A stretch of DNA of 57,795 nucleotides, taken from NCBI RefSeq assembly GCF_000420745.1, contig NZ_ATVN01000020.1, forward strand, positions 1 to 57,795. Direction: 5' to 3'. A model generated the notes under the pieces. The model saw nothing but the letters and a program-made list of their open reading frames with translations, ran no database searches and was not told the origin of the DNA. The stretch is from Pseudorhodobacter ferrugineus DSM 5888. Lineage in GTDB: Bacteria > Pseudomonadota > Alphaproteobacteria > Rhodobacterales > Rhodobacteraceae. Made by a program: the position numbers and the translations under genes. Shown here piece after piece: positions 14,444-57,795 of the stretch. Each line of letters opens with the position of its first letter. Position 1 is the stretch's first letter.

Positions 14444-15061
14444 ATGCCCGACACTGCCAAAAAGCCCAGCAAAGCCGATCTGCGACGCGAAGATCTGCGC
14501 GCCCGCCTGATTGATATTGCCGAGACGCGGATACGGGACGAGGGCCTGCCTGCGATCAAAGCCCGCGAATTGGCACGTGAAGCGGATTGTGCCGTTGGTG
14601 CGATCTATAACGTGTTCCCTGACCTGAATGGTTTGATTATGGCGGTGAATGGCCGCACGTTTCAGTCTTTGGGCAAAGTGGTTGCGGCCTCGGTCGCGGC
14701 GGCCCCACAGAACGCGCCGCAGGCTGAATTGATCACCATGTCGCATGCCTATTTGCGATTCGCTGCCGAAAATACGAACCTGTGGCGCGCCCTGTTTGAC
14801 CTTGAAATGTCGACAGAAATGGATGTTCCGCAGTGGTATCTGGCCGAATTGGGCAAGCTGTTTGCCCTGATCGCGGCCCCATTGGCGCGGGTTTTTCCCA
14901 ACTATACGCGGCATGAATTGGAATTGATGACCCGTGCTTTGTTCTCATCCGTGCATGGAATCGTTCTTTTGGGCCTGCAAAAGCGAATTTCGGGTGTTCC
15001 GCTGGACAAAATCGAAGACATGATCGCGATTTTGCTGTCGAACGTAACGTCACAAGCATAA
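14444..15061 (+). CDS. TetR-family repressor of the pspA module
   Basis: A 205-residue TetR regulator. The N-terminal helix-turn-helix lies at about 20-65 (LIDIAETRIRDEGLPAIKAR, ELAREADCAVGAIYNVFPD), followed by an all-helical ligand/dimerisation domain with the WRALFDLEMS and LMTRALFSSVHGIVLLGL segments typical of the WHG-type C-terminal domain. The matching palindromes before its own start and before the downstream pspA gene indicate that it represses both. The inducer is unknown; envelope or membrane stress is inferred from the target genes. Confidence 0.88.
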   Translation: MPDTAKKPSKADLRREDLRARLIDIAETRIRDEGLPAIKARELAREADCAVGAIYNVFPDLNGLIMAVNGRTFQSLGKVVAASVAAAPQNAPQAELITMSHAYLRFAAENTNLWRALFDLEMSTEMDVPQWYLAELGKLFALIAAPLARVFPNYTRHELELMTRALFSSVHGIVLLGLQKRISGVPLDKIEDMIAILLSNVTSQA

Positions 15062-15065
15062 TTCC

Positions 15066-15135
15066 TGAACATCGTTCAAAATTAATATTGAACAGCGTTC
15101 AGATATCGGTACGTTCAATTCATGAACAAGGTTCA
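15066..15135 (+). promoter_or_regulatory. three TetR operators before pspA
   Basis: Three palindromes of the form TGAAC-N3-GTTCA: TGAACATCGTTCA (15066-15078), TGAACAGCGTTCA (15089-15101) and TGAACAAGGTTCA (15123-15135). Start-to-start spacings are 23 and 34 bases, about two and three helical turns. A fourth copy precedes tetR. The array sits where the pspA promoter must be, so bound repressor would block transcription. Confidence 0.8.
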
Positions 15136-15163
15136 ACATGAACCACATGAAAAGGAGCGACTG

Positions 15164-15835
15164 ATGTTTGGAACCCTACGCACCCTGATCCTTGGCGCCA
15201 ATGCCCGCGCCGAAGAAACCATCCGCGACACTTACGCAATCGAACTTATCGACCAGAAAATCCGCGAGGCCGATGAAGGCTTGCGCGCGGCCAAGGGTAC
15301 TTTGGCAAGTTTAATTCAACGTCAACGCAGCGAAGAGCGGCTGCTGGCGACGCTGGATCAGCGCATCGCGGACATGACCCGCCGTGCCACCGAAGCCTTG
15401 GAACAAGGCCGCGAAGACCTTGCCACCCCAGCCGCCGATGCGCTGGCCCAGATGGAAAACGAACGTGTTTTGCGGGTCGAAACCGTGCTGCGGCTGGAGA
15501 CGAAAACCGTGCGCCTGCGCCAATCGGTTGAAGCAGGGCACCGCAGGATTATCGATTTGAAACAAGGCGCTACGACTGCCCGCGCCATTCGCCGCGAACA
15601 AGCCTTGATCAAGAAACTGCCCAATGGCGAGGCGTCTGCGATTGAAGAGGCCGAGGCGCTGATTACCCGTGTCACCAATGCCGACGACCCGTTCGAGAGG
15701 TCGGATATTCTGCGCGGCATCAACCGTGAATTGTCGCATGACGGGCTGGCCGACCGGATGGCCGATGCAGGGTTTGGCCCGTCCACCCGCGTCACCGCTG
15801 CCGATGTTCTGGCCCGCCTGAAAGCCAAAGCCTGA
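15164..15835 (+). CDS. pspA: PspA/IM30-family membrane-stress protein
   Basis: A 223-residue, highly charged, mostly helical protein of the PspA/Vipp1 type, starting MFGTLRTLILGANARAEETI. Long coiled-coil segments span about 20-150 (ELIDQKIREADEGLRAAKGT, EQGREDLATPAADALAQMEN). The family binds stressed membranes from the cytoplasmic side as ESCRT-III-like oligomers. An in-frame ATG at 15122 lies inside an operator, whereas the ATG at 15164 has AAGGAG at 15152-15157 at ideal spacing, so 15164 is chosen. Tight coupling to TetR and YiaA suggests a self-contained stress operon. Confidence 0.85.
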   Translation: MFGTLRTLILGANARAEETIRDTYAIELIDQKIREADEGLRAAKGTLASLIQRQRSEERLLATLDQRIADMTRRATEALEQGREDLATPAADALAQMENERVLRVETVLRLETKTVRLRQSVEAGHRRIIDLKQGATTARAIRREQALIKKLPNGEASAIEEAEALITRVTNADDPFERSDILRGINRELSHDGLADRMADAGFGPSTRVTAADVLARLKAKA

Positions 15836-44508: not shown

Positions 44509-45810
44509 TTAATCGTTCAACCGATCCAGCCGTGCCTGCACCGATAGGCCATGCGCTTGCAGGCTCTCGGACTTTGCCAGCCGCACGGCAGCGGGGCCAA
44601 TCGCGCGCAAGGCGGCAGGCGTCATTTGCGCCAGCGTGGTGCGTTTCATGAAATCAAGCACCGAAAGCCCGCTGGAAAACCGGGCCGAGCGCGCCGTGGG
44701 CAACACGTGGTTGGGACCGCCGACATAATCGCCAATCGCCTCGGGGGTGTATTGGCCCAAGAATATCGCCCCCGCATGGGTGATTTGCTGCGACAGGCCT
44801 TCGGGATCGGCCACGCACAGCTCCAGATGTTCGGGTGCCATGCGGTTTGACAGGGTAGCAGCTTCGGCCAGATCGCGGGTCACGATTACGACGCCATTGT
44901 CGCGCCAACTGGCCCCCGCAATCGCGCGGCGTTCCAGCGTTTCAAGACGTTTTTCAACGGCTTGCGTCACAGCCGCGGCAAAAGCCGCATCATCCGTGAT
45001 CAAAATGCTCTGCGCGCTTTCATCATGTTCGGCCTGCGACAACAGGTCCAGCGCGATCCAGTCAGGGTCATTATCGCGGTCGGCGATTACCAAAATCTCT
45101 GATGGCCCAGCGATCATATCAATACCCACACGCCCAAACACCCGCCGCTTGGCTGCCGCCACAAAGGCATTGCCGGGGCCGGTGATTTTATCGACCGGCG
45201 CAATGGTTTTTGTGCCATACGCGAGCGCCGCAATCGCCTGCGCGCCGCCAATGCGGTAAATCTCATCCACGCCGGAAATTTGGGCCGCAAGCAAAACCAA
45301 CGGGTTCACCACCCCGTCCGGCGTGGGGCAGCAAATGACAAGGCGTTCCACGCCCGCCACCTGCGCAGGAATGGCGTTCATCAAAACAGACGACGGATAG
45401 CTCGCCAGCCCGCCCGGCACATACAATCCCGCCGCCGAAACCGGCGTCCAACGCCAGCCCAAACGCGCGCCGGTAGCGTCTTCCCACATGGCGTCTTCGG
45501 GTTTCTGGCGGTCGTGATAGGCGCGGATACGCTCCGCTGCCAGTTCAAGGGCGGCACGATCTTCGGGGGAAACCTTGGCGCATTCCGCGTCAATCTCGGC
45601 AGCGGTAAAGCGCATGGTTTCGGCCGTTAACGCCAAGCGGTCAAAGCGCTCTGTCAGCTCCAACACAGCCCCATCGCCCCGCGCCCGCACATCGGCGATG
45701 ATGCCTGCAACGACATCATCCACGTCCACACTGTCTTCGCGCTTGGCCCCCAAAAGGGCGGCAAATCGCGTTTCAAAATCCATATCAGTGGTAGACAAAA
45801 AGAAAGGCAT
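44509..45810 (-). CDS. hisD: histidinol dehydrogenase
   Basis: A 433-residue enzyme catalysing the last two steps of histidine synthesis (histidinol to histidine, NAD- and zinc-dependent). Motifs: VPGGLASYPSSVLMNAIPAQ, KITGPGNAFVAAAKR, GPSEILVIAD, DLLSQAEHDESAQ (zinc/catalytic Gln and His) and MAPEHLEL (catalytic Glu-His). Near-normal length. The longer frame from 45900 is rejected because MPFFLSTTDMDFE is the family start. Confidence 0.93.
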   Translation of the reverse strand: MPFFLSTTDMDFETRFAALLGAKREDSVDVDDVVAGIIADVRARGDGAVLELTERFDRLALTAETMRFTAAEIDAECAKVSPEDRAALELAAERIRAYHDRQKPEDAMWEDATGARLGWRWTPVSAAGLYVPGGLASYPSSVLMNAIPAQVAGVERLVICCPTPDGVVNPLVLLAAQISGVDEIYRIGGAQAIAALAYGTKTIAPVDKITGPGNAFVAAAKRRVFGRVGIDMIAGPSEILVIADRDNDPDWIALDLLSQAEHDESAQSILITDDAAFAAAVTQAVEKRLETLERRAIAGASWRDNGVVIVTRDLAEAATLSNRMAPEHLELCVADPEGLSQQITHAGAIFLGQYTPEAIGDYVGGPNHVLPTARSARFSSGLSVLDFMKRTTLAQMTPAALRAIGPAAVRLAKSESLQAHGLSVQARLDRLND

Positions 45811-48083: not shown

Positions 48084-48158
48084 GCTGTGGTAGCTCAGTG
48101 GTAGAGCACACCCTTGGTAAGGGTGAGGTCGAGAGTTCAATCCTCTCTCACAGCACCA
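48084..48158 (+). tRNA. tRNA-Thr (GGT)
   Basis: A 75-base cloverleaf with encoded CCA: acceptor GCTGTGG / TCACAGC, D-arm AGCTCAGTGGTAGAGC, anticodon stem-loop CCCTTGGTAAGGG (anticodon GGT) and T-arm GAGAG / CTCTC around GTTCAAT. An integrase gene fragment begins 83 bases after its 3' end, in the same orientation, so its 3' end is a likely phage/island attachment site. Confidence 0.95.
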
Positions 48159-48240
48159 TATTTTTTCCTTCTATATCAAAAAGACACGCGCTATCAGTGG
48201 TTTGGATTGGACTCGGTTCTACACCACTATGGTTTTACAA

Positions 48241-48647
48241 ATGCCCCGACCTTACAAACACCCCAAAACAGGAGTCTTCTATTTCCGGCAGAAAACACCT
48301 GCAGACCTCCGCCAAAAGTTCGGAAAAGCGGAAGTCAGCTGGACGCTAGCGACGAAGGTCGAGAGCGAAGCAATCATTCGCAATGCCGAGGCCGTCTTGA
48401 AGCAAGCCAAAGTCTGGCAGTCTCTACGCGCCACGCCCAGCGCACTGCCCCACAAGCAAATCATGGCACTTGTTGGCGAGTACCGCAGACAACTCGATAC
48501 TATGTTGAACGAGGAACCCGGTGAAGTCGGTATATGGGATTCCGTCTTGAAGCTTCAAACCGCAAACGGCGCAGACCCGATTGCTCTTGAAAAATGGCAA
48601 GGCAAGGAAGCCGACGCGCTTCTTCTTGCCGCAGGGCTAGAGGCCCC
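48241..48647 (+). pseudogene. site-specific integrase, N-terminal fragment
   Basis: MPRPYKHPKTGVFYFRQKTP opens like the arm-binding domain (DUF6538 type) of phage-like tyrosine recombinases, continuing DLRQKFGKAEVSWTLATKVE and EAIIRNAEAVLKQAK. After about 135 residues the similarity ends and the frame runs into antisense IS3 sequence. The catalytic domain is missing, so the integrase is dead. Its place next to tRNA-Thr is classic for an integrated island. Family assignment is from the N-terminal domain alone. Confidence 0.65.
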
Positions 48648-49118
48648 GATCGTTGTTTTCATGGCCTTTCCTCGAACGATTCCGCGTAAACCCATACCTT
48701 TCATGAGGCGAGCAACGATGCAGCGCGCCACGGCTTCACCTTCACGGCACAGCTGTCGCCAGGCTTTACGGGCACCGTAAACCTCCCAGTTGGCATCCCA
48801 GACGCATCGGATTTTGAGCCGCAACACCGTATCCCGCTGCTGGCGTGCCGAGGCCTTAGACGGATCGGCGCGCACAACGAGGCAGGCGTAGTAAGTGGAT
48901 GGGGCAATCAGCAGCACCCTGCAGATCGACTCGACTCCATGGACCACGCGATGATCTTCCCCTCTCGCGCATGTAAACATACGCTGCCGGGCAGCGGGGC
49001 CAATCGCAGCGACTGCCGCAGACTGCGTTTCATAGGAGCATTGATGCTCCAGCACCATGCGGACGGCGCGCGCCCGCACCTCAGGTGAATAACGATTTGA
49101 TATCTTACTCTTTTCCAT
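48645..49118 (-). pseudogene. IS3-family transposase remnant (OrfA-OrfB fused by deletion)
   Basis: The frame begins MEKSKISNRYSPEVRARAVR and continues MVLEHQCSYETQSAAVAAIG (OrfA helix-turn-helix). It then jumps to OrfB-like sequence: CRVLLIAPSTYYACL, RCVWDANWEVYGARKAWRQL, CIVARLMKGMGLRGIVRGK. The rest of OrfA, the frameshift zone and the DDE domain are missing. It interrupts the integrase gene from the opposite strand near 48645. Not functional. Confidence 0.75.
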
Positions 49119-49245
49119 AGCCCTCATCCTTAGTCAGGTTGAAGGTCTCCGGCAAACAAGGGACTATTCACATCAGGCCCAGCGGTCAGACCTGCCACGC
49201 ACAAGGGCGAGACACATGCCCCCGCACCGCAGGGGCTCTTGGCAA

Positions 49246-49938
49246 TTACACCCGCGCAGCCTCAAACGCGGCCCAAGCCGCCTCAAATGCGGCAAAGTCA
49301 AAGCCCGGCGCGCGGGCGGGATTAAGGACAAGGCGCTCGGTGCTTTGCATTTTCGCAATGGCAGCTGCAAGTTGGCCAATCACATCAGGCGGAATCACAA
49401 CTGCGCCGTGGCGGTCGGCGTGGATCAGATCGCCAGTCCGCACATCCATACCCATGATGCGGATGGGCTGGTTCACGCTGCGAACATGCACAAATCCGTG
49501 GCTGGGACCGATGCTGCCCGCGACGACAGGGAAATCCGGTGCCATGTCACCAAGGTCGCGCATCACCCCGTTGGTCAGCGCGCCCGACATGCCAAACCCT
49601 TTGTGGATGGTCGTGTTTACCTCACCCCAAAAAGCGCCGATGGCATTGGGGCCATCAAGATCTTCGACCACTGCAACCGAGGGCTTAGGGGCCTCAGCCA
49701 TCGCTTTGTAATAGGCCATACGGCGAGTGCGGATGGTTGCGGCATCCTCGGTTGGCGGAGCAAGAGCGGCGATCTGGGCGGTGACGGCATAGCCAACCAT
49801 TACGCCTTTCGGGTCGCTGGCCTGCATCGTGCCGCGGGTAAAAGCGTTAAAGCCGCGCTTGCCTTGGGCCACCTCTATTGCATTGCAAACGGTAGGGGTG
49901 TCGACGCTGCGAAGCAGGTTTAGCAGTTGAGTATCCAT
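49246..49938 (-). CDS. RraA-like protein (HMG/CHA aldolase or decarboxylase family)
   Basis: A 230-residue member of the RraA/HMG-aldolase fold. DTPTVCNAIEVAQGKRG is the conserved first helix. AFWGEVNTTIHKGFGMSGAL, TNGVMRDL (Arg-Asp active-site pair) and DLIHADRHGAVVIPPDV (DxxHxD-type metal region) are the family hallmarks. Relatives cleave 4-carboxy-4-hydroxy-2-oxoadipate or decarboxylate oxaloacetate. The ATG shares its A with the hydrolase stop (TAATG). Last gene of the operon, so it may perform the terminal cleavage to central metabolites (inference). Confidence 0.83.
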   Translation of the reverse strand: MDTQLLNLLRSVDTPTVCNAIEVAQGKRGFNAFTRGTMQASDPKGVMVGYAVTAQIAALAPPTEDAATIRTRRMAYYKAMAEAPKPSVAVVEDLDGPNAIGAFWGEVNTTIHKGFGMSGALTNGVMRDLGDMAPDFPVVAGSIGPSHGFVHVRSVNQPIRIMGMDVRTGDLIHADRHGAVVIPPDVIGQLAAAIAKMQSTERLVLNPARAPGFDFAAFEAAWAAFEAARV

Positions 49939-50627
49939 TAGGCCTCCAGCCATCGGCGCAGGGCCGCTGTGGTTTCATCGGGTTGTTCAAGGGTGGGCAA
50001 ATGCCCTGCGTTTTCAACGACATGCAGGGTGGATTGGGGGATGAGTTCGTGCATGCGTTCATGCCGTTCAACGGGGCAAAGTATGTCTTGGCGGCCGCAG
50101 AGGATAAGGGTGGGAACGGTGACCCGGGCAAGGGTTTCTTGCTGGTCGGGACGGTCGCGCAGGGCAAGCGATTGGTTAACAAATACCTGTGGGCCAAGGG
50201 CAAGGGCCATGTCCATGCACAGGTCCAGAATGGCCGCGCGGTTGGGGCCGTCGGTCAGGTAATTCGGCTTCATCTCATCGCGCATCACCGCGTCGAGCCC
50301 ACCCGCGTGAACCGATGCTATTTGAGGCGCGCGGCGGGCCTGAACCTCGGGCAGTTCAGCGCGTGAATTGGTATCGAGCAGCGCCAAATGTGTAACGCGA
50401 TCAGGGGCTTGGGCCATGATTTCCATTGCCACGATCCCGCCCATCGACAGGCCCGCAAGGGCAAAACGCGGGGGGGCATCCGCCAAGATTTGGGCCGCTA
50501 AAGCCTGCACCGTATCGGCCCCCGTCAGGGGGGCCAGATGCAAGGGCCGTGCTCCGAATGCTGCGATTTGCGGGCCAAAAAGACGCCCGTCGCACATCAT
50601 GCCGGGAAGGAGGACAAGCGGGGTCAT
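49938..50627 (-). CDS. alpha/beta hydrolase
   Basis: A 229-residue alpha/beta hydrolase: LVLLPGMMCDGRLFGPQ (oxyanion loop), nucleophile elbow LAGLSMGGIVAMEI, acid in CGRQDILCPVE, His in VENAGHLPTLEQP. All triad members are present. It overlaps the MetE-like gene by ATGA and the RraA gene by TAATG. An ester, lactone or C-C bond substrate in the pathway is likely; not identified. Confidence 0.84.
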   Translation of the reverse strand: MTPLVLLPGMMCDGRLFGPQIAAFGARPLHLAPLTGADTVQALAAQILADAPPRFALAGLSMGGIVAMEIMAQAPDRVTHLALLDTNSRAELPEVQARRAPQIASVHAGGLDAVMRDEMKPNYLTDGPNRAAILDLCMDMALALGPQVFVNQSLALRDRPDQQETLARVTVPTLILCGRQDILCPVERHERMHELIPQSTLHVVENAGHLPTLEQPDETTAALRRWLEA

Positions 50628-51751
50628 TTTGACGCGAGCGCCGCCCCTTCGGCCAAGGCGGACAGCTTGGCATAGGCGACATCGGGGTCGACCGAGCCAA
50701 AGCCAGCGAAGGTGCCAAAGCCGCAGTCAGACCCTGCGATCACACGGTCTTGGCCGACAATATTCGTAAATCTTTCAAGACGTTGCGCCACAAGTTCGGG
50801 GTGTTCGACGAAATTCGTCGTCGTATCGACCACGCCCGGAAACAGCACTTTACCATCGGGAATATCGGCTGCCCGATCGCGGAACACGGCCCATTCATGC
50901 CCGTGACGCGGGTTCGAGGTTTCGAACAACAAATACTGCGCATCCACCGACATCAGCGTGTCGAACATTTTCGACATCGGAATATCGCAGACATGCGGGC
51001 CTTCATAATTACCCCAGCAAATGTGAATACGGACCTTTTCGGCGGGAATGCCGGATAAAGCGTGATTCAGCGCCTCCACATGGCTGTTCGCGACTTTGAC
51101 AAACTCAGCATCGCTGAGATCGGTAAACAACATATGACGCGACAGGGCGAGATCGGGGCAATCGAGCTGCAAATCAAGGCCGGATGCGACGATGGTTTCA
51201 TATTCCGCCTTCATCGCATCGGCGAGGGCTGCCAGATAGGCCTCACGGCTTTTATAAAAGGAATTCTGCAAAAACAACGAGATAACACCCGGGCTGGCGG
51301 CGTTCATAAAGCCGCGTTTGGCGCCGTGTTGGGCCATCGCGGCCTTTAGGTTCGCGATGTCTTTTTCCAGCTCGCCTTGGCCTTTTGACCGCACCTCACC
51401 CACGCACATGGGGCGCGCATATTTGGGGGTGCCGCCATCATTTGCCAATCTTTCCAAGAACTTGGGGAACAGTTTCAGGTCGGCGGGCGCATTGCGCGGG
51501 CTATCGCCATCAAAGCCGGTGTAGCGGTCTTTGACATAGGTGGCGTAGCTAATCTTGGATGTTTCCCCGTCCGAGACGATATCCACCCCTGCATCCACTT
51601 GTTTTTTAACGGTTTCCGACACGGCGCGGGTCATCGCCGCATCAAAATCGACTGGCGCAAACGGCGTGTTGCGTTCACGGGCAAAGATGAAATCCACCAC
51701 TTCCTGCGTGCGGGGAAGAGAGCCGACATGGGTTGTCAAAATGGCGGTCAT
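50624..51751 (-). CDS. MetE-like zinc-dependent thiol/alkyl-transferase family protein
   Basis: A 375-residue protein of the cobalamin-independent methionine synthase C-terminal (UROD/MetE-like) superfamily. ILTTHVGSLPRTQEVVDFIF and GVDIVSDGETSKISYATYV are at the start; the zinc site is His-x-Cys in IHICWGNYEGPH plus Cys in VIAGSDCGFGTFAGFG. It lacks the N-terminal half of true MetE (about 750 residues). Stand-alone proteins of this size include epoxyalkane:coenzyme M transferase and other thiol-activating catabolic enzymes. The operon context argues for catabolic group transfer, not methionine synthesis. Confidence 0.83.
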   Translation of the reverse strand: MTAILTTHVGSLPRTQEVVDFIFARERNTPFAPVDFDAAMTRAVSETVKKQVDAGVDIVSDGETSKISYATYVKDRYTGFDGDSPRNAPADLKLFPKFLERLANDGGTPKYARPMCVGEVRSKGQGELEKDIANLKAAMAQHGAKRGFMNAASPGVISLFLQNSFYKSREAYLAALADAMKAEYETIVASGLDLQLDCPDLALSRHMLFTDLSDAEFVKVANSHVEALNHALSGIPAEKVRIHICWGNYEGPHVCDIPMSKMFDTLMSVDAQYLLFETSNPRHGHEWAVFRDRAADIPDGKVLFPGVVDTTTNFVEHPELVAQRLERFTNIVGQDRVIAGSDCGFGTFAGFGSVDPDVAYAKLSALAEGAALASK

Positions 51752-51781
51752 GGTCAGAAATCCTTGTCAAAAACGGTGTAT

Positions 51782-51825
51782 GCAACCCGTATGTTATCCG
51801 TATTACATCTGTACATACGGGTTGC
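51782..51825. repeat. perfect 13-bp inverted repeat containing palindromic element copy B
   Basis: GCAACCCGTATGT (51782-51794) pairs perfectly with ACATACGGGTTGC (51813-51825) across an 18-base loop. The inner 30 bases (51789-51818) match the element at 15859-15888 with five differences. It sits between bicupin and MetE-like genes, 30 bases before the latter's start, so it could be an operator, an mRNA-processing hairpin or a mobile repeat. Confidence 0.6.
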
Positions 51826-51844
51826 TTTCAGGTTTGGGCGGCGA

Positions 51845-52810
51845 TCAGCCTTTCCAAGTGGGGCCAGCGGGATCGGACGTGGCGACGACGTGGTACATCG
51901 ACGCCTCGCCAGTCATAGACGGCACGGCGGTGTGGGCCAAGTTGGCGGGCACCGACATTGTGTCGCCCGGCGCAAGGGTGGCAGAGCCGTCCGCCCACGT
52001 CACCCGCCAATGGCCGCGCATCGGCATCAGGACAGATGGGTGAGGATGGCTGTGCATGTCCTCGCTGGCGGAGGCGCGGGTGACGAAGCTGACCTCAAAC
52101 CCCGGTTTGTCACGCAGCTTGCCGTTTTCGCCGATCACAATGGCGGGTTTGCGGTCGGCCATCGCGTAAAGATCCCAATAACGGGCGACGTAATGGGGCA
52201 CGACATCATGTGTGGTGGGTTCGGGATAGGCCTTGAGTTCGTCTTCGGTCAGCAGCGGCATGGGGGCCACGCCTTCGGGCAAGGTCTGGCCCTTTTTGGT
52301 GTCATAAAGCTTGCCGTTTTGGCCAAGAACAAGCCCGTGGCCCGCCGCATCCTGAATGACCTGCGGTGCCCAGATCACGCCACCGCCGGCATCATCGCCG
52401 CCCAGAACGGCCATGATCATCCCGTAATCGGTGCCGATGTTTTCAAAGCCACGGAAAATGCCGGTGGGGATGTTGATGATATCGCCTTCTTCCAGCACCA
52501 CCTCGCCTGCGTTGCCGTGACGGCCCCAGAAAAACCGCCAGCGGCCTTTGAGGGCAAAGAACACCTCGGCGGTGCGGTGGGAGTGCAAGCTGTTGCGGCA
52601 TTTTGGCGGTTGGCCAGCGGCCCCGATGTTGAAGCCGTGCGGGATGGCGATATGCACGTGCTGATCGGGGCTTTCCGACACGCCGCCGCCGATGATGGTG
52701 AAGTTTTCCTTTTGGTTGCTGCCCGGAGTGTGGGCATCAATAAAGGCGGTTTTGCAAGGGTGCAGATCGCCGTAGCGAACAATGCGGGATTCCATGTCTT
52801 GCAGCGTCAT
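51845..52810 (-). CDS. bicupin protein
   Basis: A 321-residue protein with two cupin barrels. The first (about 75-160) has CRNSLHSHRTAEVFFALKGR then GDIINIPTGIFRGFEN; the second (about 235-315) has EDMHSHPHPSVLMPMRGHWR then PGDTMSVPANLAHTAVP. His pairs in both could bind metal. Gentisate-type dioxygenases and other ring-cleaving or isomerising enzymes have this layout, but ligands are incomplete by eye. The ATG at 52810 has AAGGAG upstream. It is separated from the SnoaL gene by a 75-base gap, so it may have its own promoter or processing site. Confidence 0.8.
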   Translation of the reverse strand: MTLQDMESRIVRYGDLHPCKTAFIDAHTPGSNQKENFTIIGGGVSESPDQHVHIAIPHGFNIGAAGQPPKCRNSLHSHRTAEVFFALKGRWRFFWGRHGNAGEVVLEEGDIINIPTGIFRGFENIGTDYGMIMAVLGGDDAGGGVIWAPQVIQDAAGHGLVLGQNGKLYDTKKGQTLPEGVAPMPLLTEDELKAYPEPTTHDVVPHYVARYWDLYAMADRKPAIVIGENGKLRDKPGFEVSFVTRASASEDMHSHPHPSVLMPMRGHWRVTWADGSATLAPGDTMSVPANLAHTAVPSMTGEASMYHVVATSDPAGPTWKG

Positions 52811-52837
52811 CTTCTGTCTCCTTAAGCCACTTTGGGC

Positions 52838-52859
52838 TTCATCTTTGCAAAAAATACTC
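52838..52859. repeat. dispersed motif, degenerate copy 4
   Basis: CATCTTTGCAAAAAATACT has the CATCTT and AATAC parts of the motif at 13074 with changes between. Intergenic, just upstream of the bicupin start. Confidence 0.4.
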
Positions 52860-52885
52860 AATTCCGGCGCGCGTTAGGGGGTGCG

Positions 52886-53854
52886 TTATCCAGCATGCAG
52901 ATGGATCTGTTTCCAGATTGCCACCTCATCAATCAGGGTGAATTCGCGGCGCAGGCCCCACTCGCCCCACTCGGCATGGGTGATGCCCATCACATGGACT
53001 TCGGCCCCCGTGGGCGCGCCGAAATAGCCGTTGCCGGAATGCTTGCCGGTCAGTGACCAGCGCACGGCGGCGCGGTTTGGGGTGCCGGGATCGTTGCGGC
53101 CGATTTGATGGTGAACCTCAAACGTTGCCGCGGGAAAGGAAGACCGCAGGCGCATCCACTGGGTCTCTGGGAACGCCCACGACCAACCGCCTTGGGTGCC
53201 CCAATGTTCGGTGCGCACGGCGCGGTCGTATTCCGCGCGAATGACGGTGAAATCCTTGTCCATGATGCGGGTCAGGATATCGGCAAGCCGCTGGCCCCAT
53301 TCATTTTCATTGCCACGGCCTGTGTAGGGGCCTTGCACGTCGTGGCTGGGGTGGAACGGGCGGATGGCTTTGTCCGGGCCACCCTCACCCAAGATTTGCA
53401 GGCGGGCGTAATCGGACGGATCAAAGCCCAATTGGCGGGCAATTCCGCCGACATCGCGCACCAACCATTCATCGTTGATCTGGTCGTTTATCGCTGCGCA
53501 ATCGGCCATCGCACGGATGGTAAAGCGTTTGCCCGTGGGGGGGCCAAATGCGCCATGCCCGGTATGTGTGCCCGTGGTGACGATGCGGTGTGACGACAGA
53601 AAGCCCGTGTCGGCATCACCCGACCAAATCACATCTTCACCCAGCAATTGACGGTCGGGGAATTCGGCGAGGGTCGCAAGCGTGCCGTCGATCACGCCTT
53701 GATTGCCGCGCGCAAGGCCGGATGGAAAACGCATCGGGATATCGGGGGCATAATAGTGGTGGAGGGTGGCAAGGCCGCGATCTTCCCAAATCTCTTGCGT
53801 GATTTTCAGTATATAGTCGGGAAGGTTGCGGAACTGATTGGAAAAGCCCTTCAT
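52886..53854 (-). CDS. double-SnoaL-domain protein (paralogue 1)
   Basis: A 322-residue protein with two tandem SnoaL/NTF2-type domains (about 1-150 and 170-320). It shares with the next gene upstream TLATLAEFPDR, LLGEDVIW, FLSSHR, DEWLVRD, WGQRLADILTRIM and IDEVAIWKQI. SnoaL proteins are cyclases, hydrolases or isomerases of polyketide-like compounds; double-domain versions are rarely characterised. Start overlaps the upstream paralogue by ATGA. Confidence 0.75.
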   Translation of the reverse strand: MKGFSNQFRNLPDYILKITQEIWEDRGLATLHHYYAPDIPMRFPSGLARGNQGVIDGTLATLAEFPDRQLLGEDVIWSGDADTGFLSSHRIVTTGTHTGHGAFGPPTGKRFTIRAMADCAAINDQINDEWLVRDVGGIARQLGFDPSDYARLQILGEGGPDKAIRPFHPSHDVQGPYTGRGNENEWGQRLADILTRIMDKDFTVIRAEYDRAVRTEHWGTQGGWSWAFPETQWMRLRSSFPAATFEVHHQIGRNDPGTPNRAAVRWSLTGKHSGNGYFGAPTGAEVHVMGITHAEWGEWGLRREFTLIDEVAIWKQIHLHAG

Positions 53855-54864
53855 GGGTGGTCACCTGTGGCCAATAGAATCTGTTTCCAGATCGCGGTTT
53901 CGTCGATCAGCGCGTATTCGCGCCGGATGGCGGCCTTACCGGTTTGGCCGTAGGGGCCGTATTCGGCGTGGCAAATGCCCATGATATAGATCTGCGCCCC
54001 TGTGGGCCTGCCAAAGCGACCCCAGCCAGAATGCGTACCATGCAGCGACCAGCGAAGCGCCGCGCGGGGTGGTAGCAAAGGATCCTCTCGGCCAATTACA
54101 TGGTCGATTTTGAAGCTGGCGGTTGGAAACGCCGCGCGCAGACCCATCCAGAACCGATCGGCACCGTGCCAACCCAGAGCGTCCTGCCCACCGGGATAGT
54201 GCAGGTTTGCAGCACGGTCATAGGCCTGTGGGATCACGTCCATTTCGGCGGCCATGATTCGCGTCAGAGTGTCGGCATAGCGCTGCCCCCATTGATCTGT
54301 ATTGCCTTGGCGCGAGTATGGCCCTGCCACATCATTGGCGGGGGTCATCGGTTTCACGCAATTTTCTGCGCCACCCTCGCGCGCAATTTGGTCGCGGGTC
54401 CAATCTTTGGGGTCATATCCCATTTGCCGCACAATCGACGATTGGTCACGCACCAGCCATTCGTCATACACTGCCCCATCGCGGATCGCGCAATCGGCCA
54501 GAATGCGGTAGCGCAGGTTCGCCCCTGTCGCGGCGCCGTATGCGCCTGCGTAACTATGGGTCATAGTACAAATCAAGCGGTGCGAGGACAAAAAGGCATC
54601 GGACGTGGCAGTCGCACCCGCTGGGTCGTCACACCAAATCACATCCTCGCCCAGCAGTTCGCGATCGGGGAATTCGGCCAGCGTGGCCATAGTGGCGGCG
54701 ATGACGTTGGAATTATCGACCACCACCGAAGCAGGGGAGCGCACGATCAAGCCGGGTGCGTAAAGGGTTCGCAGGCTGCCGATTTGGCGCTGTTCCCAAA
54801 TCGCATGTGTAATGCCGTTGATATAATGTGGCACGTCACGCCATTTCGGGTCAAAGCCTTTCAT
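53851..54864 (-). CDS. double-SnoaL-domain protein (paralogue 2)
   Basis: A 337-residue paralogue of the neighbouring gene (shared motifs ATMATLAEFPDRELLGEDVI, DEWLVRD, WGQRYADTLTRIM, LRWSLHGTHSG, IDETAIWKQI). Two tandem SnoaL-like domains. The pair may form a heteromer or act on successive intermediates. It starts 2 bases after the lacI stop region, in the same operon. Catalytic residues cannot be named with confidence. Confidence 0.75.
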   Translation of the reverse strand: MKGFDPKWRDVPHYINGITHAIWEQRQIGSLRTLYAPGLIVRSPASVVVDNSNVIAATMATLAEFPDRELLGEDVIWCDDPAGATATSDAFLSSHRLICTMTHSYAGAYGAATGANLRYRILADCAIRDGAVYDEWLVRDQSSIVRQMGYDPKDWTRDQIAREGGAENCVKPMTPANDVAGPYSRQGNTDQWGQRYADTLTRIMAAEMDVIPQAYDRAANLHYPGGQDALGWHGADRFWMGLRAAFPTASFKIDHVIGREDPLLPPRAALRWSLHGTHSGWGRFGRPTGAQIYIMGICHAEYGPYGQTGKAAIRREYALIDETAIWKQILLATGDHP

Positions 54865-54866
54865 GC

Positions 54867-55880
54867 CTAATGTCCTTTCGGTAAGCGGGCTGAGGAACGC
54901 AGGATCAGCGGGCCATCGATTTCAATCTTTTGCGGGGCGCGGGTGGGGTCGTTTATTTGCGCCAGCAGCGTGTCAACGGTCGCATCGACCATGCGGTTCA
55001 GCGGTTGGCGGACGGTTGTAAGATCATAAGCGCCCCATGCCGCCAATGGCACATCATCATAGCCGATGATCGACACGTCCGTGCCCACGCGCAGACCGCT
55101 GGAACGGAGCTGATCAATCACGGCAAAGGCCATGTGGTCGTTGCCGACAAAAATCGCATCGGGAGGGGTGGGGCTGTCGATCATGTCTTTCGCGGCTTGT
55201 GCTGCGATGATGCGGTCAAACATGCCATCAACAAGGGCATGTGGGGCGGCCCCGCCTTCGGCCAGTCCTTCGACAAAGCCGCGTTGGCGATCGCGTCCGG
55301 TGCTCGACCCTTGCCAGCCTGCGATATGGGCGATGCGGCTGTGACCACCTGCCAGCAAAAACGCGGCCACCTTGCGCCCGCCTTCGACATTGGCCGAGGT
55401 GACCGAAGACAGCCCTGCCCCCGGCTGGCCACGGTTGAACATGACCACAGGAATGCCCGCCGCGGCACAGCGTTCGGTCAGGTTTGACGACATCGCGACC
55501 GAGGCCGTGATGATGCCATCCACCTGATAATCCATAAGATCATGCACTACCCGTTCAATCCCGTCTTGGGAATTCGAGGCGGTAAAGACCAAAATGTGGT
55601 AGCCTTTGGCCTGTAGCGCGTTGGACAGACGTTCCAGCGCCAACGGGTAGAATTGATTATCCAGATAGGCCACGACCAAGCCGATGATCCGGCTTTTGCC
55701 CGTAATCATCGCACGGGCCAAAGGGTTGGGGCGATAGCCCAATTGTTCGGCGGCGGCGCGGACCTTGGCGATGGTTGCCTTGCTGGCCGATGCGCCGGGG
55801 GTAAAGACGCGGCTGACCGCTGATTGGCTTACGCCTGCAAGGCGGGCCACGTCTTGACTGGTGATCTTTGTCTCACCCAT
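54867..55880 (-). CDS. LacI-family transcriptional regulator
   Basis: A 337-residue LacI/GalR regulator. The N-terminal helix-turn-helix and hinge read ITSQDVARLAGVSQSAVSRV, TIAKVRAAAEQLGYRPNPLA, then a periplasmic-binding-protein-like effector domain (IIGLVVAYLDNQFYPLALER, DAIFVGNDHMAFAVIDQL, SIIGYDDVPLA). The start codon overlaps the SDR stop (TGATG), so it is encoded inside the operon it presumably controls. Effector unknown, likely the pathway substrate. Confidence 0.9.
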   Translation of the reverse strand: MGETKITSQDVARLAGVSQSAVSRVFTPGASASKATIAKVRAAAEQLGYRPNPLARAMITGKSRIIGLVVAYLDNQFYPLALERLSNALQAKGYHILVFTASNSQDGIERVVHDLMDYQVDGIITASVAMSSNLTERCAAAGIPVVMFNRGQPGAGLSSVTSANVEGGRKVAAFLLAGGHSRIAHIAGWQGSSTGRDRQRGFVEGLAEGGAAPHALVDGMFDRIIAAQAAKDMIDSPTPPDAIFVGNDHMAFAVIDQLRSSGLRVGTDVSIIGYDDVPLAAWGAYDLTTVRQPLNRMVDATVDTLLAQINDPTRAPQKIEIDGPLILRSSARLPKGH

Positions 55881-56644
55881 CAGTCTGCCGTCCAACCTCC
55901 GTCGATGAGCAGGCTGGAGCCTGTCACCAATGCGGAGGCGTCAGACGCGAGATAAATGACACCGCCCATAATGTCGGTGACTTCCCCCACGCGGCCCAGT
56001 TTGATTTTTTCCTCGATCCATTTGCGGCGTTCGGGGATGGCCAAGGTTTGTTCGGCCAATGGCGTGCGGATGAAGGTGGGGCAGATGGTGTTGACGCGAA
56101 TGCGGGCGGAGCCCCATTCGATCGCCATGGATTTGGTGAACCCTTCAACCGCGTGTTTGGTGGCGCAATAGACGCCGCGATCTATGCCGCCGACATGGGC
56201 CATCTGGCTGGAGATATTGATCAGGCTGCCGGGTTTTTGGGCCGCCAGCAGGCCGCGCGCCACCGCGCGGGTCAGGAAATAGGCGCCGCGCACGTTCAGG
56301 TCGGTGACTTGGTTGTAATCTTCCAGCGTGGTATCGACGGCGGGGGAGTGGCGGGCGAGGCCTGCGGAATTGACCAGAATGTCAAAGGGACCATGTTCGG
56401 CGATCTGGGAGTCCGTGGTGGCAACATCGGCGACATCCATTGCCAGCACATGCGTGACCCAGCCTTCGGCGGCCATTTCGGCCTGAAGCGCATGGAGTTT
56501 ATCAAGCCCCCGCGCGGCCAGCCACACTTCGGCCCCCGCCTCGGCCAGTGCCACGGCGCAGCCTTCGCCGATACCCGACGACGCACCTGTGACAAGGGCG
56601 CGTTTGCCGGTTAGGCGGAAAGAGGGCGTGCGGGGAAGGGTCAT
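55880..56644 (-). CDS. short-chain dehydrogenase/reductase
   Basis: A 254-residue classical SDR: RALVTGASSGIGEG (NAD(P) loop TGxxxGIG), ILVNSAGLARHSP, INISSQMAHVGGIDRGVYCATKHA (catalytic Ser, Tyr and Lys with YxxxK), and PTFIRTPLAEQ after it. It ends GSSLLIDGGWTAD. Oxidation of an alcohol or reduction of a ketone in the pathway. It overlaps the upstream SnoaL gene by ATGA; a longer frame from 56890 is a read-through artefact. Confidence 0.9.
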   Translation of the reverse strand: MTLPRTPSFRLTGKRALVTGASSGIGEGCAVALAEAGAEVWLAARGLDKLHALQAEMAAEGWVTHVLAMDVADVATTDSQIAEHGPFDILVNSAGLARHSPAVDTTLEDYNQVTDLNVRGAYFLTRAVARGLLAAQKPGSLINISSQMAHVGGIDRGVYCATKHAVEGFTKSMAIEWGSARIRVNTICPTFIRTPLAEQTLAIPERRKWIEEKIKLGRVGEVTDIMGGVIYLASDASALVTGSSLLIDGGWTAD

Positions 56645-57438
56645 GCGGGCAATCCTGAGCTGATGTTCACGGGGCCCAGATTGCGGGCCTTGTTGAACAT
56701 CTGCAAGCGCGCAAAGACATCGACGCCAAGTTGGGCGTACATATCCAAAAGGTCGACCAGCACCCAGTTTTCGCGGATCAGGCCCCCTTCCATGCGCCAG
56801 AAATCGAGCGAGCGCAGGGTGATTTGTTGGCCTGTGGGCGGGATGCCCATCCAACCGTCTTGGGTAATCGTCAGGCGCATATTGGGCCAACCGGTTTCAC
56901 AGGTGTAGTCGCCTTGGGCGATCCAATGGCTGTGCAGCCCTTCGGGGTCAAGGCCACGGTCGGGCATGGCCTGAAGGAAGGGAATTTGGTGCCAATGGCG
57001 AAAGCCGGAAATACCGCGTGCCGTGCCAATGCCTGCGGGGCCGTACCAGTTAAAGCGCGGGTGCCAAAAGCGGGGAAGGTCCATCGCGTCGGGCGGTTCT
57101 TTGGGGTGGCGACACAGGGCTGTCAGCATATCAAGGACGTGCTGCATCGTGGCTGCGCCGTCACCATCGGCGGTTAGGCCGTCCTGAGTCATGGGCGCAG
57201 GGGTGCAGAGGTATTTGCCAAGCTGCGGGACCATCGGCCAGACGCCTGCTTGCATCATCACCTCGGGGATGTCCCAGATCGCCTGCATTTCGACGATTTT
57301 GCCGTCTTTGATGCGGAAAAATTCGTGGTAGCGCATATGGGTAAGGTGGCCCGTAGGCGGAATGGACAGCCAAGGGGCGGTGAAGGTGCCCATGAAATTG
57401 CCGCAGGTGCCGATCCAATCCTGCCCTTCGGGCGTGGT
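56641..57438 (-). pseudogene. double-SnoaL-domain protein, 5' end removed by IS21
   Basis: About 265 residues remain, in frame up to the IS21 end (TPEGQDWIGTCGNFMGTFTA just inside the junction, no start codon). The C-terminal part of a first SnoaL domain (MRYHEFFRIKDGKIVEMQAI) and a complete second domain (HPRFNWYGPAGIGTARGISG, LRSLDFWRMEGGLIRENWVL, VDLLDMYAQLGVDVFARL) are visible. Third SnoaL protein of the operon. The missing N-terminus and operon promoter should lie on the far side of the element. Confidence 0.8.
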
Positions 57439-57498
57439 TGTTGATTGTCACTGAGAACTGACCCGGCAACAGCAAAAATTGTCACTGAGAACTGACCC
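57439..57498 (+). mobile_element. IS21-family left end with two terminal repeats
   Basis: TGTCACTGAGAACTGACCC occurs twice: inside 57439-57467 (outer) and at 57480-57498. Repeated copies of the terminal sequence are a feature of IS21 elements. The outer 29 bases have an exact inverted copy at 1880-1908. istA follows. Confidence 0.8.
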
Positions 57499-57551
57499 AT
57501 GTGCAACCTTGCCTCAGCTTGAATCAGCTGGGGGCACTTGGAGTGATAGAC

Positions 57552-57795
57552 ATGAGTTTTTTAAAAGTTATCCGGGGATGGGCGCTGCGAGAGAAGATGC
57601 CCATTCGCGAGATCGCGCGGCGCACGGGCATCTCGCGCAACACGATCAAGAAGTATTTGCGGGAGGGGATTGTTGAGCCAGCGTTTCAGACGCCGGATCG
57701 TCCGAGCAAGCTGGATCCGTATGTCACTCAGCTGACAGCATGGCTTGTTTCGGATCAGCGCAAATCACGCAAAGAGCGCCGGACTGCGAAGCTGA
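57552..57795 (+). CDS. istA: IS21-family transposase IstA (partial, runs off the window)
   Basis: 81 codons from ATG 57552: MSFLKVIRGWALREKMPIRE, IARRTGISRNTIKKYLREG. This is the N-terminal helix-turn-helix of IstA, followed by PSKLDPYVTQLTAWL and RKSRKERRTAKL. The DDE domain and istB lie beyond the right edge. The frame is clean, so this element may be intact. Confidence 0.88.
   Translation, partial: MSFLKVIRGWALREKMPIREIARRTGISRNTIKKYLREGIVEPAFQTPDRPSKLDPYVTQLTAWLVSDQRKSRKERRTAKL

Follow-up and report, generated by a model that had tools for sequence, protein, structure and literature searches.

The nine consecutive minus-strand genes at 49246-57441 of contig NZ_ATVN01000020.1 of Pseudorhodobacter ferrugineus DSM 5888 raise the question of which pathway they encode and whether that pathway is whole. 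The window analysed was the whole contig of 57795 bases, and the genes encode an RraA-like protein, an alpha/beta hydrolase, a MetE-like protein, a bicupin, two tandem SnoaL proteins, a LacI regulator, a short-chain dehydrogenase (SDR) and a third SnoaL protein (SnoaL3). A preliminary description made from the sequence alone had named these families, and all nine were confirmed by Pfam. It had missed a truncation: the window copy is the downstream half of a larger operon, and an upstream importer, a HisD-like dehydrogenase and a small SnoaL protein make up the rest of the pathway in many relatives. The gene set is real and widespread, and it is probably catabolic. On the reading that we cautiously favour, the window contains the downstream part of a catabolic operon that is conserved and under LacI control, the fuller system of which would import and degrade a sugar-like small molecule by stepwise oxidation, opening, hydrolysis and aldol cleavage.

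The fuller operon of the relatives runs in the order ABC sugar-type importer, often a small SnoaL gene, HisD-like, SnoaL, SDR, LacI, SnoaL, bicupin, MetE-like, hydrolase and RraA, and is also present in one member of the same genus. With one genome taken per genus and the own genome counted, the bicupin was found in 124 of 295 genomes of the family, four of them with weaker matches only (E about 1e-33 to 1e-51), and it occurred in 25/398 genomes of a phylum sample and, the own one again counted, in 3/9 genomes of the genus. Neighbourhoods were compared in 80 loci, the top scorers among at least 571 relatives and so biased to close kin, 27 of them cut short. At E ≤ 1e-15, counted on the strand of the bicupin only except for two divergent families and with the hydrolase undercounted, the families were represented as follows: bicupin 80, tandem SnoaL 77, LacI 76, SDR 67, HisD-like 66, MetE-like 62, SnoaL3 59, RraA 53, ugpC 46, hydrolase, MalF, MalG and small SnoaL 42 each, the binding protein of the importer (SBP) 33, S-adenosylmethionine (SAM)-dependent methyltransferase 17 and amidase 8. 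In one comparison of gene order in relatives, the SDR matches count for their positions and not for their identities. SDR, LacI, double SnoaL, bicupin and MetE-like genes stood together in 59/80 loci, with the HisD-like gene as well in 54, and all eight families were present at this threshold in just 16. The co-occurrence exceeds chance, and the genes do not, as the preliminary description had allowed they might, fail to occur together elsewhere. Nor was the close match to a characterised pathway that it had thought possible found in the open-access papers searched; among the matches listed from that literature, with subscription journals and preprints mostly outside the search, no paper was seen to describe this operon or genes for the catabolism of mycosporines.

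A looser threshold gave 104 loci with at least 5.5 kb of downstream sequence, 16 of 120 having been dropped for short downstream sequence; the 120 are not independent, since at least 6 of the 40 added loci were identical over the tested stretch to members of the 80. MetE-like genes were then counted in 82/104 loci and the hydrolase in 62/104, and the SAM-dependent methyltransferase in 26/104, 25 of these with MetE-like. The methyltransferase gene sits between the bicupin and the MetE-like gene, for example at 14963-15565 of locus L153. MetE-like and hydrolase genes tend to co-occur (54 loci with both, 28 with MetE-like only, 8 with hydrolase only, 14 with neither; Fisher p 0.015 over loci that are not independent), and the idea that they are alternatives to each other was not supported.

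The truncation is seen at the upstream end of the block. Followed upstream, the SnoaL3 frame stays open until it meets a stop at an insertion element's edge (about 57442), and a full-length relative matches the window protein only from residue 85 of 350. The first 84 or so codons have been replaced by the element, within which the contig ends. The three SnoaL-type proteins of the preliminary description stand as family members, all matching PF07366 (71.1, 44.7 and 75.3 bits, cut-off 28.4), but the third gene is a 5'-truncated fragment. In the same-genus genome G677, a HisD-like gene, ugpC, two operator-like palindromes and divergent genes for SBP, MalF and MalG follow beyond SnoaL3. The congener's HisD-like and binding proteins, used as queries, were recovered at 100% in the congener itself as a positive control, and neither was found with the same queries in the own genome, which is 99.98% complete by the tool's figure. 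The sole HisD-type match there was the separate, canonical histidine-synthesis HisD (44518-45744), at 40% to the congener's HisD-like query. Own-genome matches to MalF were just 24-30% identical and are taken as belonging to other importers. The end of the insertion element occupies the place of the upstream half in relatives, and the pathway is therefore most likely incomplete in this genome, which appears to have lost the operon's other half.

LacI control was supported by the conserved neighbourhood and by a palindrome, TGCANNCGNNTGCA, which in relatives precedes the opening genes of the operon. In the 80 loci, surveyed with the Ruegeria RraA as RraA query, 54 sites were found against about 1.7 expected from base composition; the motif is a fitted one, first chosen from the same upstream regions, and it is its placement that counts as evidence. 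Forty-nine of the 54 sites preceded ugpC, SBP or HisD by no more than 400 bases, three fell in genes and two at other places, and among the 46 loci with ugpC at least one upstream site occurred in 22 and a pair, spaced about 120-160 bases, in 16. The LacI protein of the operon may bind the palindrome as its putative operator. No site was present in the window.

The HisD-like dehydrogenase of the relatives is nearest to HpsN, with a Ruegeria copy reaching 384 bits for HpsN and 242 for the top-scoring histidinol dehydrogenase. HpsN is of the same fold family, and in the one sequence aligned (L153) the catalytic E-H, D and K positions and the Q/H metal-ligand region line up with it. A lysine after the metal-binding aspartate (after G-D) was kept in 66/66 operon sequences, as was the specificity motif G-K-F-P-M. 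According to PMC11382572, HpsN carries G-R-Y-A/S-H at this place, the histidine of which binds the sulfonate, and HisD carries G-S-A-P-L; the operon proteins have neither, and G-K-F-P-M would be a third HisD-type specificity motif. These residues suggest an enzyme that oxidises a CH2OH beside a hydroxyl-bearing carbon, on a substrate that is probably neither dihydroxypropanesulfonate (DHPS) nor histidinol. In clusters further removed, HisD carries GKYPL, GRYPL or GRFPL. Around some HisD relatives, on Rhizobium pRL8 and a Salmonella plasmid, the annotation shows no bicupin, hydrolase or aldolase; a Cupriavidus record is unannotated in this region, and a Natrinema HisD context holds neither SnoaL nor bicupin. 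On the Salmonella plasmid (L189, 8799-11308) a LacI regulator and an MFS transporter accompany the HisD relative, and on a Roseomonas plasmid (L193, 6151-9908) a DAO-type amine oxidase and an ester cyclase lie near it, hinting at an N-substituted substrate there.

Bicupin, hydrolase and aldolase form a recurrent trio that stays together while much of the surrounding gene content changes, and its aldolases are interchangeable. The aldolase is RraA-like in Rhodobacteraceae, Martelella, Roseibium and Sinorhizobium, and an HpcH-type enzyme takes its place in Novosphingobium, Thioclava, Klebsiella, Salinivibrio, Deinococcus and several further genomes, the HpcH version being closest to solved hydroxyketoacid and 4-hydroxy-2-oxoheptanedioate aldolases. 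The Deinococcus plasmid holds an importer, three ester cyclases, two HisD genes, SDR, LacI and the trio, and no MetE-like gene. The trio with HpcH was also seen joined to the tetronate genes otnK, otnC and otnI with no HisD or SnoaL beside it (L158, 10001-15351; L160, 7299-12596; L177), which suggests a second substrate class. The window's RraA-like protein belongs to the RraA-like superfamily (PF03737, cut-off 24.5 bits), and matches a Croceicoccus LigK at 31% over 84 residues. Quercetinase-type cupin dioxygenases have HxHxxxE in the first cupin plus a later histidine as metal ligands; the first of these was kept in 7/7 bicupin homologues. Among the best 50 Foldseek matches of the bicupin model, quercetin dioxygenases came first, followed by oxalate decarboxylases, 3-hydroxyanthranilate and salicylate dioxygenases and vicilins.

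Zinc-dependent thiol transferases of the MetE type bind their metal through His-x-Cys, Glu and Cys, and the MetE-like protein has this pattern, with H243, C245, E277 and C343 invariant in 13/13 sequences. It shares the Meth_synt_2 domain and the ligand positions with the cobalamin-independent methionine synthase and epoxyalkane:coenzyme M transferase family, but differs in being tied to SnoaL/NTF2 genes and in scoring far below the NCBIfam cut-offs for methionine synthase (at best 87.8 of 406 bits). Contexts outside the operon were examined for 9 of the 30 MetE-like records with less than 60% identity; a SnoaL/NTF2 gene was near in five (three sphingomonads, Halobellus and Pantoea), and four had no such neighbour (two haloarchaea and two actinobacteria). 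In the three sphingomonads the gene has an NTF2-like neighbour and a GcvT-type gene close by, in a methoxy-aromatic or O-demethylation setting, two of these clusters having annotated metF, purU, folD and ligA/ligB-type genes and Croceicoccus also ligK. On a Halobellus plasmid (L209, 2744-9137) five consecutive ester cyclases, four of them 42-48% identical to SnoaL3, precede the MetE-like gene, so that the association with SnoaL reaches even a haloarchaeon. The earlier proposal that the MetE-like protein moves a methyl or alkyl group holds in outline, given the conserved ligands and the relatives beside O-demethylation genes. The tandem SnoaL model (pLDDT 95.7) resembles Lsd19, MonB and IdmH proteins in Foldseek. 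The top matches, the epoxide hydrolases Lsd19 and MonBI/MonBII, likewise have two NTF2-like halves, but identity is about 11-13% and whole-chain superposition poor (TM about 0.3), and the single-domain IdmH superposes better on one half.

In the pathway proposed here, the ABC importer would bring in a sugar-like small molecule, the HisD-like enzyme (NAD, Zn) would oxidise a hydroxymethyl group by a hydroxyl-bearing carbon to a carboxylate, and SDR and SnoaL-type proteins would then adjust the molecule. The metal-binding bicupin would open it, the alpha/beta hydrolase would hydrolyse the product, and the RraA-like aldolase, elsewhere HpcH-like, would split a 4-hydroxy-2-oxo acid into central metabolites. 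Rhodobacteraceae add the MetE-like thiol methyltransferase, often with the SAM-dependent methyltransferase, probably to handle a methyl group. We infer the catabolic role, the individual reactions and their order from the conserved gene order, the importer genes, the operator pairs, the catalytic positions of HisD and the retention of the trio across the aldolase swap. The 3-O-methylgallate/gallate route (LigAB/DesZ, DesC or MgaC, LigK) has the same logic of ring opening, alpha/beta hydrolase and RraA-type aldolase: according to PMC12314914 and PMC6888825, once the ring is open an alpha/beta hydrolase (DesC, MgaC) takes off the methyl ester, and LigK then cleaves the product. Croceicoccus and Novosphingobium have clusters of this kind that include relatives of the MetE-like protein and the hydrolase; the hydrolase is 34-36% identical to those by sphingomonad O-demethylation genes and equally close to that of the Klebsiella cluster, a weak likeness in a very large superfamily. 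The route differs in using LigAB where the operon has the bicupin, the operon adds HisD and the sugar importer, and no tautomerase or hydratase was named in the annotated operons.

Several observations weigh against the favoured reading. The usual fourth ligand, the later histidine of quercetinase, is arginine in 7/7 bicupin homologues, and the bicupin model is moderate (pLDDT 79, residues 18-52 low) with a weak fold match (TM about 0.48) shared by oxalate decarboxylases and seed vicilins. The RraA-like protein scores 33.5 bits where the LigK/PcmE model (NCBIfam TIGR02798) has its cut-off at 304.5. Hydrolase and RraA are both near the bicupin in 43/104 loci and neither is in 19/104. The missing half of the window copy, finally, could in principle lie in an assembly gap.

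A more specific substrate class, which on paper suits every enzyme of the set, was considered. The ring of mycosporines and gadusols carries OH and CH2OH on C5, a methoxy group on C2 and oxygen or nitrogen on C1 and C3. SnoaL proteins might strip the amino acid and HisD turn CH2OH into COOH, while the MetE-like protein takes the methyl group or the hydrolase later removes it as a methyl ester. Opening between C2 and C3 by the bicupin would on paper, by our own derivation, lead to 4-carboxy-4-hydroxy-2-oxoadipate, which the RraA-like aldolase could cleave into pyruvate and oxaloacetate, like LigK in gallate breakdown. Because of the clusters without MetE-like, the score far below the LigK cut-off and the tetronate-linked variants, we regard a pathway dedicated to mycosporine-type sunscreens or gadusol as unlikely. 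If true, it would give a gene-level recycling route for abundant algal and fungal UV screens.

A sugar-acid pathway with no ring and no dioxygenase is possible, if on the unlikely side: the bicupin would be a KduI-like isomerase, the SDR KduD-like, the hydrolase a lactonase and the aldolase one for 2-keto-3-deoxy sugar acids. The SDR scores near the KduD and gluconate 5-dehydrogenase models, though below cut-offs, the importers are of sugar type, the distant bicupin-hydrolase-HpcH clusters carry the tetronate genes, and a fuconolactonase-like amidohydrolase adjoins the Ruegeria operon. However, the tetronate-linked clusters have no adjoining HisD, SDR or SnoaL, the leading matches of the bicupin model are dioxygenases and not KduI, and the MetE-like and several SnoaL proteins are left unexplained. 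The HpsN-like score and the conserved lysine of the HisD-like enzyme would fit DHPS or another sulfonate as substrate, but G-K-F-P-M replaces the sulfonate-binding motif in all 66 sequences and no sulfolyase-type gene was named in the annotated operons examined; DHPS was rejected on the motif, and sulfonates as a whole seem very unlikely.

The SnoaL family is chiefly known for its polyketide cyclases, and the SnoaL/IdmH/Lsd19-type folds could point to a biosynthetic cluster for a secondary metabolite. No polyketide synthase gene was present in the annotated relatives examined, and these have an importer with putative LacI operators at it; polyketide biosynthesis was rejected on these grounds and a secondary-metabolite role is exceedingly improbable. 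As to the window copy, it might still function, driven from the insertion element or internal starts and fed an intermediate through another importer and dehydrogenase. The eight genes other than SnoaL3 are open reading frames with no internal stops and the second half of SnoaL3 is retained, but the operon HisD and binding protein are absent from a genome for which the congener control was positive, and there is no operator in the window, so that a working copy is rather improbable.

The operon probably imports and degrades a natural compound, and its presence by bicupin in 124/295 sampled genera of the family, with related sets in rhizobia, sphingomonads, enterobacteria and a Deinococcus, points to an abundant one. 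The third HisD motif, the trio and the MetE-like/SnoaL association are each directly testable in culturable strains.

Table 1. Features of the gene block and its flanks in the 57795-base window.
Feature	Position	Strand	Basis
tRNA-Thr (GGT)	48084..48158	+	ARAGORN
Presumed remnant of phage-type integrase N-terminus, DUF6538 domain	48202..48780	+	Pfam PF20172, 51.2 bits
Transposase-like remnant, IS3-like by eye	48555..49127	-	Pfam HTH_21, 50.8 bits
RraA-like aldolase/decarboxylase, 230 aa	49246..49938	-	Pfam RraA-like, 71.6 bits; start 49938 set by TAATG overlap
Alpha/beta hydrolase, PcaD/BioH/MenH group, 229 aa	49938..50627	-	Profile matches
MetE-like protein, 375 aa, with conserved Zn ligand positions	50624..51751	-	Pfam Meth_synt_2, 52.4 bits
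Bicupin, 321 aa, first cupin HxHxxxE	51845..52810	-	Pfam, structure model, alignment
Tandem SnoaL protein 1, 322 aa	52886..53854	-	Pfam
Tandem SnoaL protein 2, 337 aa; model with two NTF2-like halves	53851..54864	-	Pfam, structure model
LacI-family regulator, 337 aa	54867..55880	-	Pfam
Short-chain dehydrogenase (SDR), 254 aa	55880..56644	-	Pfam
SnoaL protein 3, 5'-truncated, about 84 N-terminal residues gone	56641..57441	-	Pfam, frame, alignment
End of multi-copy insertion element; IS21-like istA start by eye	57442..57795	+	Own-genome matches

The preliminary description had the genes almost all joined by overlaps, which is too strong: as read from the sequence, 5/8 junctions overlap (ATGA at SnoaL3/SDR, SnoaL2/SnoaL1 and MetE/hydrolase, TGATG at SDR/LacI, TAATG at hydrolase/RraA), and the others have gaps of 2 (LacI/SnoaL2), 75 (SnoaL1/bicupin) and 93 bases (bicupin/MetE). 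The block is flanked on one side by the tRNA-Thr gene with the integrase and transposase remnants, the DUF6538 remnant being one that we take to derive from an integrase, and on the other by the insertion element. The tRNA gene is a probable island attachment site at which the block may have inserted. Pfam found only helix-turn-helix domains on the end of the insertion element. A search of the own genome gave 31 matches to it, of which 13, the window copy among them, span 93 bases or more, and many lie at contig ends; this multi-copy element breaks the own-genome assembly at many contigs.

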